Source: a virus. Taken from it: DNA of 32,083 nucleotides. The DNA is taken from positions 1-32,083 of IMG/VR virus record IMGVR_UViG_3300025889_000548. One strand, written 5' to 3'. Below, piece by piece: positions 4,652 to 24,518 of the stretch. Made by a program: the position numbers and the translations under genes. Each line of letters begins with the position of its first letter. The first letter of the stretch is position 1. The notes below the pieces were generated by a model. That model saw only the letters and a program-made list of their open reading frames with translations. It made no database searches and was not told the origin of the DNA.

Positions 4652-5650
4652 TTAATCTTTTTTTGCTAATTTCCAAATATATCCGCCCCTACTTTGAAAC
4701 TTGGTACGGTTATAAGTTCTCATAATATCCCCCGATTCAACTCCAGTCGCTCGTGATGCTTCATCTCTATTTTTCCAACAACCAATAAGATTGTCTTCCA
4801 AATCATAGGCACATACCAACCACTCTTCAAGTTCTTCACCATTTAATCTTTTCTTGCTAAACTCTGCGTATTTCTCATTTAGTTCAAACCCTATGTAGTT
4901 TCTATTTGTGTCTCTACAAGGCAAACCTGTTGTCCCAATACCACTAAAGACATCAAGAACAACATCACCTTCATCTGTTAAAAAGTTAATAAAGTATTCT
5001 GGTAGTTTTCTATTAAAGGGTGCTGGATGTCTAATGGTATTGTCTCTTTCTGTTGAGGCTGTTGGAAATCTAAATACATTATCAGGTCTAACTTTATCAG
5101 GGAGTTTAACAATATCCTTCTTATCGCTTCTTGCACCATCTTTTATTATTCCGTGCCCTTTTATATTCCAGGGGTATTTTGCTCTATCACTTGTTGCTTT
5201 AGATTGTTCTTCCATCACCCTTTCCATATAAAACTTTAACTCCTTTTGGTTTTTAACAAAATGGAATATAAACTCTGTATTGTTTCTAAATCTTTTTGGT
5301 GAGCCATTGGGAATGCCGTTTAATTTATGCCAAATATAAGTGTCATAAAACTTTAGTTTGGTTTCCTTCTGTGAGCGATGTATTAGTTCAAAGATATATG
5401 GATTTCTCAATCCATTTGAGCAATTATCGTTAATGTTAAGTATGAAACTACCACTTGGTTTAAGAACCCTGTGTATTTCAACAAATAATGGTAATAACCA
5501 ATCAACATATTCTTTTGGTTTTTTTATTGATATATTTTTTCCGTAGTTAACAATATCTGCGTATGGAGGACTTGTTACCACTAAATCAACAGAATTATCT
5601 GGTAAGTCCTTAATCAATTCAAAACAATCCCCTGTTCTAATATCTATCAT
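4652..5650 (-). CDS. DNA methyltransferase (N4-cytosine/N6-adenine, beta class) with NUMOD1-like C-terminus, 332 aa
   Basis: It transfers a methyl group from S-adenosylmethionine to an exocyclic amino group in DNA. Motif IV is TSPPY at residues 26-30, and the SAM-binding motif I is DVFSGIGTTG at 233-242; motif IV before motif I is the beta-class order. SPPY is most common in N4-cytosine enzymes, so m4C is favoured, but m6A cannot be excluded. After the catalytic fold, residues about 277-330 (CAYDLEDNLIGCWKNRDEAS, then SRGGYIWKL) resemble a NUMOD1/IENR1 DNA-binding module typical of homing endonucleases. No restriction endonuclease is adjacent, so it probably protects phage DNA or regulates genes. 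It is first of a three-gene minus operon. The start is fixed because the fold begins at once (DIRTGD). Confidence 0.88.
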   Translation of the reverse strand: MIDIRTGDCFELIKDLPDNSVDLVVTSPPYADIVNYGKNISIKKPKEYVDWLLPLFVEIHRVLKPSGSFILNINDNCSNGLRNPYIFELIHRSQKETKLKFYDTYIWHKLNGIPNGSPKRFRNNTEFIFHFVKNQKELKFYMERVMEEQSKATSDRAKYPWNIKGHGIIKDGARSDKKDIVKLPDKVRPDNVFRFPTASTERDNTIRHPAPFNRKLPEYFINFLTDEGDVVLDVFSGIGTTGLPCRDTNRNYIGFELNEKYAEFSKKRLNGEELEEWLVCAYDLEDNLIGCWKNRDEASRATGVESGDIMRTYNRTKFQSRGGYIWKLAKKD

Positions 5651-8085: not shown

Positions 8086-8893
8086 TAAAAATTACATTAG
8101 ATGAAGATGTTGTTGAGGTTAAAGATTATATGTCCATATCTCAATACCAAAAGTTTGTAATAAACGAAGAACTTTATAAAAAAAATCCAGCAGAATTGCT
8201 GTCTTTATGGTTAAATGTTCCAATGAATCAGATTAAAGATTTGCCGTTGGAAGAGGTAAAGTTTGTTGAAAACTATTTAACACAGGAAATTACCAAAGAA
8301 TTTAACGAAGATAAATTATATGAGAGTTTTGAATTTGATGGTGTTGAATATGGATTGGAAAATGACTGGTCAAAATTGGCTTGGGGAGCTTGGGTAGATT
8401 TTCAGGTTTTATGTGCTGATAATATTCAGGGAAATATTCATCAGTTGATGGCAATTTTATATCGTCCAATTATATCAAGAGATAAAAGGGGAAAATATAA
8501 AATAGCACCATATAAGGCAGCAGAAATTCAGGATAGAGCAGATTTATTCTTAAAATTACCAATTCACTATTGGTTTGGCGCCGCTAATTTTTTTTTTCTA
8601 ACATCAATAATATACACCAACAATATAAAGAATTCTTTGAACTTGACGATGTCAGTAAACAACAAGGCGATGATGGGGTACAAGATACTACCAAGTTGGA
8701 TAAAACGCAAAATATCATCAGATTTTATTTTGCCGTTACATTTCAATTGGCAAAAGAAGATATTACCAGGTTTGAGCAAATGGATGAAGTAAATGTATAT
8801 TTAGCTTTAAATGCGGCTTCTTTATTAAAAGAGAGACGAATTAAAGAAGAGGAGGAACTAAAAAAACTCCAACAAAAAAGTAAAAGAAAATAA
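8082..8893 (+). CDS. Tail-assembly-chaperone-like protein, two frames joined by a probable -1 frameshift
   Basis: The zero frame starts at ATG 8082 and runs through residues like [13 protein letters not shown], a motif I associate with phage tail assembly chaperones. It enters ten T at 8588-8597. Reading on in zero frame gives 65 unlikely residues to a stop at 8792. Slipping back one base on T TTT TTT gives [20 protein letters not shown] and continues as a charged helical protein to TAA 8891-8893, which overlaps the next start. The joined product would be about 270 aa. Tail assembly chaperones commonly use programmed -1 frameshifts, so this could be real. A one-base error in the T run would look the same. 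It sits between terL and the tail genes, five genes before the tape measure. Confidence 0.7.
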
Positions 8894-10830
8894 TGCTACA
8901 ATATATTTCATATCATAGAATAATTGATTTATTTGAACAATATCAGAAATCGCAAGAAGGAATTGGCTTAAATAGTTTTGGGCACGGAAATCTTGTGATG
9001 TTCGGTCAAACAGATTCTGGAATGACTCCAACATATCCTATGATGTTTGTTACGCCACAAGCTGTGGAATATTTGGAAAATACAACCAATTGGACAATCC
9101 AAATATTATTTGCTGATAGAATTAATGATGATATGTCAAATGAAATTGATGTAATTTCTGATATGTCAATTCAATCCAAAAGATTTGTTTCTTATATCAA
9201 AAGAGGATTTGACCAGACTCCACCACTTTACAATTATATGGATTGTAATTTGCCAGTTACATCTATTCCATTTTTGGAAAGATTTAATGACTATGTTGGA
9301 GGAATTGCTTTAACTGTTGTATTGCAGGTATTTGAAGATATTAATGCTTGTGATTATTATGATTTTGATGTATCCCCAACTCAAACTCCAAGTAGCACTC
9401 CAACCCCAACACCAACACCAACAAATGCCGTTTTAAATATTGTTTCTTATGTTGACCCAGGCTCAATTGATGTGAGATTTGAAGGACATCTTAATCATAC
9501 AATTAACGACAATATCAATCTAACAATTGAACAAATACTTGATATAACAACTGGTGGTACTTATACAGCTTTAACAGGATTAACAATACCATCAGGTTCC
9601 ATTTCAGGTTCAAGTTCAGTTTATTTAGCAGATGCTAATTTTGATGCTTTATCAAGAACAAGCACATTTGGAATTACGGGAGCAACAATTGATGTTACTC
9701 CAACAACTGTTTTTGCCACTCCTACACCAACACCAGGATTTACACCAACACCAACATCTACGCCAACTCAAACAGCAACGAGCACTCCTACACCCACACC
9801 TACTAACACACCAACTCAAACACAAACACCAACGCCTTCTACATCGATGGGTGCCACACCAACGCAAACACCTTCTAATACCCCAACTGAAACTCCAACA
9901 GCAACTCCAACCAATACAGCGACACCAACAACTACGCAAACACCTACAAACACTTCAACACCAACTAATACTTCAACACCTACAAACACTTCAACACCAA
10001 CGACAACGGCAACACCTACCAATACTTCAACACCAACTAATACACCAACTCCATCTTCAACCACTTTACCGTCAGGAACAACAGAAGCAAATAATTATTT
10101 AAATGCTGTCGTTAGTGCTGGAGGAACTTTATCTGAAACAATTTCAGCGGCAACTATAACATTATTTACAACACTTGTATCAAATAATCTTTGGGATAAG
10201 CTTACACAATTCTATCCTTTATTAGGAGGTATTGGAGCCTCTACAGCAATTGAAGGAAAATCTGCAACCTCAAAGATTACCTGGAATGGTGGAATGACAT
10301 TTAGTTCTTTAGGTGCAAAATCAAACGGAACAAATGCATATGGAGAAATTGATTACAACGATAATACTTTAGGAACTACTAATTCTTATCACCATTCGTT
10401 CTATTCAAACCAAGCAACTGCTGCAGACGCAGGATATTCTTTGGGTGTATCTCAAGGAGGTCATCAAAATGCTTTGTATATTTTTGATAATACATCAAGT
10501 TTGGCGGGTGGAAGAATTCAAACAAGTGGAACCTCTATGTTCTCAACCGCATTGGCAAATAGTTTGGGATATTTTATTCAACAAAGAAATAACGCAACTG
10601 ACCAAAGAGTATACAAAAATGCAGTTGATATTACTAATGGTGGAAATGCGGTTGCATCAAGTGGAAGACCAAATGCTAATTTGTGGGTATTTGCTCGTAA
10701 TCCACTTGGTAACTATACAAATAAACGATGTGCGTTTATCACAATTGGTTCTACTCTTTCTGCGGGTGATAGAACAAATCTACAAAATGCGGTTCACACA
10801 TTTAACACAACATTAGGACGAAATTACTAA
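8893..10830 (+). CDS. Tail-completion-like anchor fused through PT linkers to display domains, 645 aa
   Basis: Residues 1-160 ([45 protein letters not shown]) resemble the about 160-aa tail-completion/terminator proteins of Bacteroidota phages. A Pro/Thr linker (162-177) leads to a small beta-rich domain (178-275), then a long Pro/Thr linker (275-388). The last about 250 residues resemble a phage-associated concanavalin/LamG-like domain ([31 protein letters not shown]). I infer a structural anchor that displays a sugar-binding module on the virion surface. The long linker DNA is repetitive and may vary in length. It overlaps the previous stop by 1 nt. Confidence 0.7.
9718..10055 (+). repeat. 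Pro/Thr-coding repeat tract
   Basis: About 340 nt of ACN-CCN-type repeats encode alternating Pro and Thr with Ser, Asn and Gln (units such as [11 protein letters not shown]). The same kind of DNA occurs at 24187-24422 and 25987-26190, all on the plus strand and in frame, so unequal recombination among them is possible. Confidence 0.85.
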
Positions 10831-22187: not shown

Positions 22188-23114
22188 ATGGAAAATACTA
22201 AAAAGTTTTCGTTCGCTTATGATTTATCTGGTTTGCCAGCATATGAGGCATATGCTTCCGACCAGTTGATTAAAGCAGTATTAGGTCTTACGCTTCCAAA
22301 ATATAGCACACAAAGACCGAATTTGCACGGTACAACAACTAATGTTGGTTGGTTGGAAAATGATGTATATTTGCAAGATATGTCTTGTGGATTTAATTCA
22401 TCAGGAACAACAGACCAGAACATAATCACAATTGATATTTGCAATAAAAAGGTCAATCAAACTCTATGTCCAACGGACCTCTATGATACCTATTTAGCGA
22501 TGCAATTATCTAACTCAAATCTTCCTGAAACAGTTCCTTTTGAAGAGTTAATCTTAACAGATATTTCAAATAGAATTGCTAACAAAGTTGAGTTACAATT
22601 ATTCAACAATACAATTGCTGGTGGTGATTGTTTTGATGGAATGAGCGCATTAATTACATCAGGAAATGGAGCTACACAAATCGCATATTCTGCAGCAACT
22701 GCTGATAATGGTTTGGATGTATTCTCTAAAATTTATGAGTCAATACCACAGAACGTTTTACACAGAGATGACTTGGTTATTTACTGTTCATACGCTAACT
22801 ACAGAGGTTTGGTTGCAAGTATGAGAAAATCTTCATACATCAATATGTTCACAGACCCAACAGGAAATGCAACTCAAGGTCCAGATTGGTCATTGACACT
22901 ACCTGGTTCGAATGTCAAGGTAATTCCAACTGTCGGAATTAATACCAATGTATACTACGCTGGTCCAAGCAAATATGTACAATTTGGAATGAATTCTTCC
23001 ATAATGGAAACCAAGAGTTTGTGGGACCCATTTGAGCAAATCATCAAAATCTACTCTACTGTATCTTATGGTTTGGGTGTATTTGATGTAGCTTCTTGGG
23101 CTATCTGCAAATAA
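22188..23114 (+). CDS. Major capsid protein (probable HK97 fold), 308 aa
   Basis: The length and composition fit a major capsid protein: few charged runs, many Asn/Thr/Ser, a central helix (FEELILTDISNRIANKVELQ) with the features of the HK97 spine helix, then a GMSALITSGNGA loop, an N-VLHRDDLVIYCSYANYRGLV segment typical of the A-domain, and a C-terminal GLGVFDVASWAIC strand. It follows scaffold by 42 nt with an A-rich leader, as expected for a strongly translated gene. Low sequence similarity to known capsids makes this a context-supported call. Confidence 0.75.
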   Translation: MENTKKFSFAYDLSGLPAYEAYASDQLIKAVLGLTLPKYSTQRPNLHGTTTNVGWLENDVYLQDMSCGFNSSGTTDQNIITIDICNKKVNQTLCPTDLYDTYLAMQLSNSNLPETVPFEELILTDISNRIANKVELQLFNNTIAGGDCFDGMSALITSGNGATQIAYSAATADNGLDVFSKIYESIPQNVLHRDDLVIYCSYANYRGLVASMRKSSYINMFTDPTGNATQGPDWSLTLPGSNVKVIPTVGINTNVYYAGPSKYVQFGMNSSIMETKSLWDPFEQIIKIYSTVSYGLGVFDVASWAICK

Positions 23115-23152: not shown

Positions 23153-23195
23153 TTCTTAAAAAAAATAAACTAAAATAAAATAAATAATATAAATT

Positions 23196-23993
23196 ATGGC
23201 AAGTTGTTATATTTCGACAGGTTATACTTTGGATTGATTCTATAGTCCAATTAAAATCGGGTGAATTGCTGGAAACTCTGGAGACAGACAATCAGCAGCC
23301 AAGCCTCCCAAGAGAATAAAAGTAGGGGGAAGGTTCAACGACTAACAGGTGAGTATCTCAAACAATAAACCTGACACGAGTGCCCGACAACAGAAATGTT
23401 GATGATATAGTCTGAACACTACGAATAATCTAAAGAAGGTAGTGAAGTAGAGGATAAAGAGCCTCTTCGATAACAAAATGTGTAGAACCTCAAGTACCGG
23501 CGGAATTTCGCAAATGTGGATTCTAGGTGGTCTTGGTAATTCAATCACAGGTTATACTGTAACAAATTCGATGGTTTCCGCTATCGGAGGAACTGGTACT
23601 TGGTTCAATTTCCAATTACCAAAACAATCAGCATCTTTGACTGAAACTTTGGGTGTAAATGATGTAGCACAATCAGTTACATTCCAACCAGAGTTGGTTG
23701 TTAATTTACCTAAACTTGATACTACTTTGCGTGATGTCTTTGTTGATTTAGTATCCCAAAATGAAATCTTTGTTTTGGTTGAGGACAACAACACAAGATA
23801 TTGGTTGGTAGGTCTCGATAATGGATTGCAAGTTACTGCAGGTTCTCTACAAACAGGTCAGGCTTATACTGATTTGAATGGAGCGTCAGCGATTACAATG
23901 ACTGGTGGTGAACCAACCAGCATCAGACAGGTTGAAGTAACTACCACAATTGCAGCTGTATTCACTGCAGGTGGTTTCACTTTTGAAAGTTAA
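23196..23993 (+). CDS. Tail-tube-like virion protein, gene split by a group I intron (exons 23196-23234 and 23481-23993)
   Basis: Exon 1 is 13 codons (MASCYISTGYTLD). The intron begins with an in-frame TGA, so unspliced mRNA would give only that peptide. Joining 23234 to 23481 gives a continuous 183-aa protein reading TGYTLD/CRTSSTGGISQMW across the junction, a Cys-Arg...Gly-Gly-Ile motif I recognise from N-termini of Bacteroidota phage virion proteins. The rest (FNFQLPKQSASLTETLG, LPKLDTTLRDVFVDLVSQNE, VEDNNTRYWLVGLDNGLQVT) is beta-rich and fits a major tail (tube) subunit in that group. It follows the capsid gene and precedes a terminator. The ATG at 23478 belongs to the intron end and is not the start. 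Confidence 0.85.
23235..23480 (+). ncRNA. Group I self-splicing intron, 246 nt, no endonuclease gene
   Basis: P1: exon TTGGAT (23229-23234) pairs with GTCCAA (23245-23250), ending in the required U-G pair at the 5' splice site. P10: TTCTATA (23238-23244) pairs with exon-2 TGTAGAA (23481-23487). P3: TCGGG (23257-23261) with CCCGA (23383-23387). P4: TTGCTG (23266-23271) with CAGCAG (23293-23298). P7: GACTA (23340-23344) with TAGTC (23408-23412), inside the classical GGTTCAACGACTA and GATATAGTCTGAAC sequences. P8: CAACA-GAAA-TGTTG (23388-23401). A hairpin CAGGT/ACCTG (23346-23350, 23369-23373) between P7 and P3 suggests subgroup IA. P9-like: AGAGG/CCTCT (23449-23466). The last base is G23480. 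Confidence 0.93.
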
Positions 23994-24007: not shown

Positions 24008-24038
24008 GTGGGGGGTTAAACCCCCCCACTTTTTTTTA
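24008..24038 (+). terminator. Intrinsic terminator after the intron-containing gene
   Basis: GTGGGGGG (24008-24015) pairs with CCCCCCAC (24022-24029) across a 6-nt loop and is followed by nine T. It probably reduces transcription into the appendage cassette relative to capsid and tail-tube genes. Confidence 0.85.
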
Positions 24039-24059: not shown

Positions 24060-24518
24060 ATGGGATATAAATTCCGTCGCAAGAAATTTTCTAATTATTT
24101 AGGGGAAGAAAGAGCTATTGATGACATCATAGAATCTTTTGTGCCTGATGGTGCATTGTTATGTGATTTCACATATACAATAATCCCTCCAACACCAACA
24201 CCAACAAGTAGCCCAACAAGCACTCCAACTCAAACACCAACAAGTACTCCAACAAGCACACCGACAAATACGCCAACAACCACTCCAACTAATACGAGCA
24301 CTCCAACAACTACACAAACGAGCACTCCAACTAATACGAGCACTCCAACAACCACTCCAACTAATACAGTTACGGCAACTAATACACCAACCCCAACTAA
24401 TACATTAACACCAACCCCAACTGGAACTATATTACCTGAAACATTTTACATTCAAGCCCAAAACGGGAATAATATATTAACCGAAAGTTCTGTTTATATT
24501 GAAATAGAACATACATAA
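24060..24518 (+). CDS. Short PT-linker virion protein, 152 aa
   Basis: A basic N-terminal segment ([19 protein letters not shown], about 42 residues) is followed by about 78 residues of Pro/Thr repeat (43-121). It ends with a short tail, [20 protein letters not shown]. That tail is related to LAETFYLMTEDSEPILDENS in the gene at 25780, so the two share a module. The N-terminus probably binds the capsid or tail and the repeat projects outward. It is first in the appendage cassette, after a terminator. Confidence 0.7.
24187..24422 (+). repeat. Pro/Thr-coding repeat tract
   Basis: In-frame ACN-CCN-type repeats with units such as STPTNTPT, about 236 nt, similar to 9718-10055 and 25987-26190. Confidence 0.85.

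Follow-up and report, generated by a model that had tools for sequence, protein, structure and literature searches.

What separates the first 13 codons of a tail-tube-like gene from the remainder, and how did the interruption come to lie in this phage? The question is raised by the IMG/VR record IMGVR_UViG_3300025889_000548, analysed over its whole length of 32,083 nt (the window), for which a plain ORF caller lists the gene as a 171-codon ORF with a wrong start codon and the loss of 13 conserved residues. The single Rfam match in the whole window was to the group I intron model RF00028, at 23185-23435 on the plus strand with 78.3 bits (E 1.7e-18; curated gathering score 50 bits) and covering model positions 1-253 of 253. 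Exon 1 (23196..23234, plus strand) comprises the first 13 codons of the gene (MASCYISTGYTLD), which join the CR... of the second exon directly in intronless homologues; the intron (23235..23480, plus strand) has 246 nt, contains no ORF and ends with a terminal G at 23480; exon 2 (23481..23993, plus strand) holds 170 codons plus the stop of the tail-tube-like protein (phrog_19091, no assigned function). Joined in silico, the exons encode a protein of 183 aa split after codon 13. The first in-frame codon of the intron is TGA. An IMG/VR scan with the exon 2 protein yielded 116 relatives, and the best 80 of these 116 were analysed: 76 are intronless and read ...GYTLD|CR... (or GFTLD) exactly at the predicted junction, among them one without a normal exon 1 (L079). 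The original prediction, made from the letters and their open reading frames, had placed a group I intron here, and its positions proved right almost to the base, as did the splice at TLD/CRT, the 13-codon first exon, the opening TGA and the size of 246 nt without an endonuclease gene. Homologues in which the 246 nt are translated would have spoken for a coding insert; none was present among the homologues, which favours an intron.

The conserved structure was examined in an alignment of eight introns, four from this position in the tube gene (site A) and the remaining four from two further positions (sites B and C). The counted structure comprises P1, P3, P4, P5, P6, P6a, P7, P7.1, P8, P9 and P9.1 and was derived from the same eight sequences. 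Its 57 pairs were formed in 97.4 % of the cells, 19 pairs showed double changes, and neither figure was reached in any of 500 shuffles. When the partners were slid by 1-3 columns, the pairing fell to 27-45 %, a comparison in which the derivation from the same sequences favours the unslid structure. Direct double changes were found in P1, P3, P6a, P8, P9 and P9.1, while P4, P6 and P7 are invariant across the eight introns and thus neutral for covariation. All helices lie on the plus strand. P1 (23229..23250) pairs the exon sequence UUGGAU (23229-23234) with GUCCAA of the intron (23245-23250) and has the U-G pair at the 5' splice site, kept in all eight aligned introns and accompanied by the terminal G before exon 2; P1 co-varies with its target across the three sites (GUGGAU/GUCCAC, GUCCGU/GCGGAC). 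The 5' strand of P10, UCUAUA (23239..23244), pairs with the opening bases of exon 2, UGUAGA (23481-23486), with six of six pairs in all four complete site A introns aligned; the site B and site C introns of the same alignment showed no evident P10. P3 (23257..23387) joins UCGGG (23257-23261) to CCCGA (23383-23387) and shows a double change from C-G to U-A in L027 and L041. P4 (23267..23297, UGCUGG/UCAGCA) encloses P5 (UCUG-GAGA-CAGA, 23277-23288), and P7 (23340..23412), formed by GACUA (23340-23344) and UAGUC (23408-23412), makes a pseudoknot with P3. Between the 5' strand of P7 and the 3' strand of P3 lies a P7.1-like hairpin (CAGGU/ACCUG) with double changes; an extra pairing at this place, P7.1, is a hallmark of subgroup IA. 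P8 (23388..23401, CAACA-GAAA-UGUUG) has A-U, U-A or C-G as its middle pair in the relatives, and double changes mark both P9 (CACUAC/GUAGUG, 23417-23422 with 23439-23444) and P9.1 (GUAGAGG/CCUCUUC, 23447-23453 with 23462-23468). All elements named beforehand, P1 with its terminal U-G, P10, P3, P4, P7 and P8 with a GAAA loop, were present on inspection. The minimum-energy fold was ordinary (z -1.46), such folding being unable to represent the P3/P7 pseudoknot. A chance resemblance is excluded by the E-value to RF00028, the covariation that no shuffle reached and the exact junctions of the intronless homologues. On sequence grounds, 23235-23480 is a compact group I intron in its identity, boundaries and conserved structure.

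The structure model of an intronless homologue of the interrupted gene's product (mean pLDDT 71.8) is suggestive of a tail-tube-like protein. It resembled the tail tubes of Mu (Z 7.4), lambda V (7.1) and SPP1 (6.4), and most rows with Z of at least 5 were tail tubes or their kin; the safe level of the tool is Z 8, and a Z of about 7 may mean only a common arrangement. This moderate resemblance is in keeping with the predicted tail-tube-like nature of the gene. A sequence match to the tube protein was not present in the PDB, and the window's own protein had no match among named phages. Two homologues used as queries, L170 and L233, gave distant matches among named phages, and Nonlabens phage P12024S, a phage of Persicivirga, carries a distant tube-gene homologue. 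The upstream capsid-like gene (phrog_11320; 22188..23114, plus strand) is intronless in the window. Its product gave a poor model (pLDDT 40.8); the P12024S homologue weakly matches a major head protein family and adjoins a homologue of a head maturation protease. Just after the tube-like gene lies a strong intrinsic-terminator-like hairpin (24008..24036, plus strand) of 8 pairs followed by TTTTTTTT. The terminase shares about 35 % identity with those of Flavobacterium phages, and a genome-contig scan of cellular genomes for host assignment found no relative. The phage group likely infects Bacteroidota, as had been proposed; the terminase and the P12024S homologue support this assignment, though indirectly. 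Elsewhere in the window, two far-apart genes (8893-10830 and 24060-24518) match the same profile region of phrog_15511, as if they had a shared or duplicated domain, and a DNA N6/N4 methyltransferase gene (4652-5650, minus strand) lies on the strand opposite to the virion genes.

At site A the intron was found at the same base in four of the best 80 relatives (L027, L041, L048 and L057). A fifth same-site carrier, L007, was found through its intron, which is 99.2 % identical to that of the window, while the introns of L027 and L041 are 91 % identical to it. The same-site intron of L233 is partial, lying at the end of its contig; its 98 nt are 98 % identical and adjoin an exon of 48 % amino acid identity. 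In L349 the same-site intron is 85 % identical and the exon identity 50 % at the amino acid level; L233 and L349 are both far more distant phages. L011, to which the window is most closely related (91 % protein identity), is intronless. In L079 (2900-3120) the capsid-like gene is fused directly to GYTLD|CRT of the tube-like gene, a junction such as a deletion or a chimaeric assembly would leave.

Related phages hold the same intron lineage in the capsid-like gene. Site B (SCG-F-DPTG) is occupied in L062 and L063, and site C (CP-Y-DLY) in L063, L089, L170, L295, L316 and L329; both are filled in L063, and site C is empty in L062. These introns are 78-87 % identical to that of the window over the full length and 85-91 % over the aligned core. 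Each of the two sites splits a codon, and removal of the intron restores the residues of intronless relatives in a conserved frame. The site C intron is what sets L089 apart from L088; on its two sides these contigs are 98.1 % and 95.5 % identical. By comparison of these sequences, one endonuclease-less lineage is present at three or more sites, spread over two adjacent virion genes, in an uncultivated phage group.

Guanosine-initiated self-splicing would join UUGGAU to UGUAGA and restore the 183-aa protein, and unspliced RNA would stop at once at the UGA that opens the intron. The intron is presumably catalytic in the cell, and the tube-like protein may be an abundant virion protein whose production would be strictly controlled by splicing, as the original prediction held. 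Base pairs by themselves are no proof of catalysis, and an in-frame ATG (23478) does precede exon 2, so that the element might be read as a degenerate, non-splicing remnant in a broken gene, with exon 2 translated alone. This is hardly credible: the core helices are all intact and carry compensatory changes across relatives, and intronless relatives conserve the residues of exon 1. As a conserved internal start the ATG at the 3' splice site was rejected, since L027 has TTG there and the site B and site C introns have the ATG in a different frame from exon 2. The comparison with L007 bears on the age of the intron at this locus. The two introns differ at 2 of 246 nt (intron blocks 96-100 % identical), whereas most of the 30-nt blocks outside reach 46-90 % identity, with nearly no shared flank, and only 24 of 57 fourfold codon sites match. 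In the exon tree, a single clade of the four tested carriers was rejected (AU p 0.0007), while a grouping of the window with L007 stayed compatible (AU p 0.088). This surviving pair is what an old, vertically inherited site A intron with many precise losses would allow, the near-identity to L007 being ascribed to ribozyme constraint, and the difference between L088 and L089 could equally be a recent loss or a recent gain. We regard such an inheritance as improbable, although one old gain followed by many losses may account for part of the pattern. A divergence of about 9 % in the same-site introns of L027 and L041 reveals a sequence that is free to change, so that one old gain with later losses is a poor account of near-identity in L007, despite its diverged fourfold sites, and in L233 beside a protein of 48 % identity. 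Since the intron is near-identical across diverged hosts and its presence is patchy, it seems to have reached this phage or its close kin recently by horizontal transfer. This would be a well-resolved natural intron transfer, with near-identical introns, hosts at 48-80 % protein identity and a closest relative without the intron. Taken jointly, that a self-splicing intron interrupts the gene between codons 13 and 14, belongs to an endonuclease-less lineage at three or more sites and entered horizontally in recent time is a reading in which we have very high confidence.

The intron-encoded endonuclease that characterizes mobile group I introns is absent (246 nt, no ORF). For the recent transfer, the simplest route would be recombination in a mixed infection, perhaps aided by an endonuclease encoded elsewhere. 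Collaborative homing of the trans-endonuclease kind is established for other phages, and a homing endonuclease acting in trans, e.g., a free-standing HNH enzyme of a co-infecting phage, is a tentative possibility of some weight that is compatible with the transfer. Among 13 records examined, most of them fragments, HNH_3 was present in two, L098 (the contig of L027) and L105 (the contig of L057), both of carriers; it was not found in the window, L007 or L233, and GIY-YIG was absent from all 13. The intronless L045 also encodes HNH_3. The free-standing HNH genes lie at L098:3770-4270, L105:2514-2909 and L045:1552-2049, thus in carriers and non-carriers. A general endonuclease partner was rejected, with HNH_3 in just two of the 13 records plus one intronless relative. 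The lineage might instead spread guided by its RNA, through reverse splicing, reverse transcription and recombination, with re-targeting to adjacent virion genes by changes of the guide. The guides have indeed changed to match their targets at the three sites, and window and L007 share nearly no flank. The best target, TTGGAT|TGTAGA, is present in all five carrier lineages with a known exon 1, as against 6 of the 54 different junctions that lack the intron; these counts give a hypergeometric p of about 1e-4, with relatedness ignored. However, this association could also stem from co-conversion of the flanks, which would give the same target pattern, and we consider the RNA-guided route rather unlikely. 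The locus opens to experiment the old question of how phage introns that lack an endonuclease of their own are spread.

Group I introns in comparable genes have been described. In Staphylococcus phage Twort they interrupt orf142, later identified as the tail-tube protein gene (PMC11878797); Twort shares with the window an intron in a tail-tube(-like) gene and differs in the host phylum and in its multiple introns with reported exon skipping. The mycobacteriophages BAKA and Optimus carry a 265-bp endonuclease-less intron in a minor tail gene and LittleE an intron in its capsid gene, with efficient splicing reported for these tail and capsid introns (PMC3706429). Like the lineage described here, they reside in tail or capsid genes, that of BAKA being small and endonuclease-less, and are patchy among relatives, but copies at three sites in two adjacent genes, none with an endonuclease gene, set the present lineage apart, and the host of the window phage would not be a mycobacterium. 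In Bacteroidota phages, group I introns are known from crAss-like phages, including the major capsid gene (PMC7886860), and in thousands, with a mean of about 206 nt, from the Bacteroides Jug phages (PMC12363816); those genomes are large and intron-dense, whereas the window record has 32 kb and one intron. An intron by a Sak4-like gene of the Flavobacterium phages FpV21 and Fpv1 has 71 % DNA identity over the window's intron core, but sits in a different host gene and is followed by a homing-endonuclease ORF (phrog_314). In FpV21 (L002:2480-3300) this intron relative is unannotated and the endonuclease-family ORF after it is annotated only as a hypothetical protein. The intron core is common, with at least about 120 contigs in each of two pattern scans. 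A size of 246 nt is ordinary, and introns in tail-tube, capsid and tail genes and in Bacteroidota phages are already published kinds. The proposal that the combination of target, host, small size and 13-codon first exon was unusual is weakened by these reports, small endonuclease-less tail-gene introns included. The present locus adds a clear case of recent mobility in which an endonuclease-less lineage has come to occupy three sites of two neighbouring virion genes.

Several further contigs were rich in group I introns. L003-L010 carry several each (e.g., L010:6092-10118, L004:4115-6099), up to six of them above the gathering score within about 4 kb in L010, and PhotoRC-II RNA lies near the introns in L006, L008, L009 and L010, which suggests intron-dense photosynthesis genes of cyanophages. 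The 279-kb contig L173 as well as L202 and L283 each match the 3'-end pattern of the lineage in three to five places and are probably intron-rich phage genomes.
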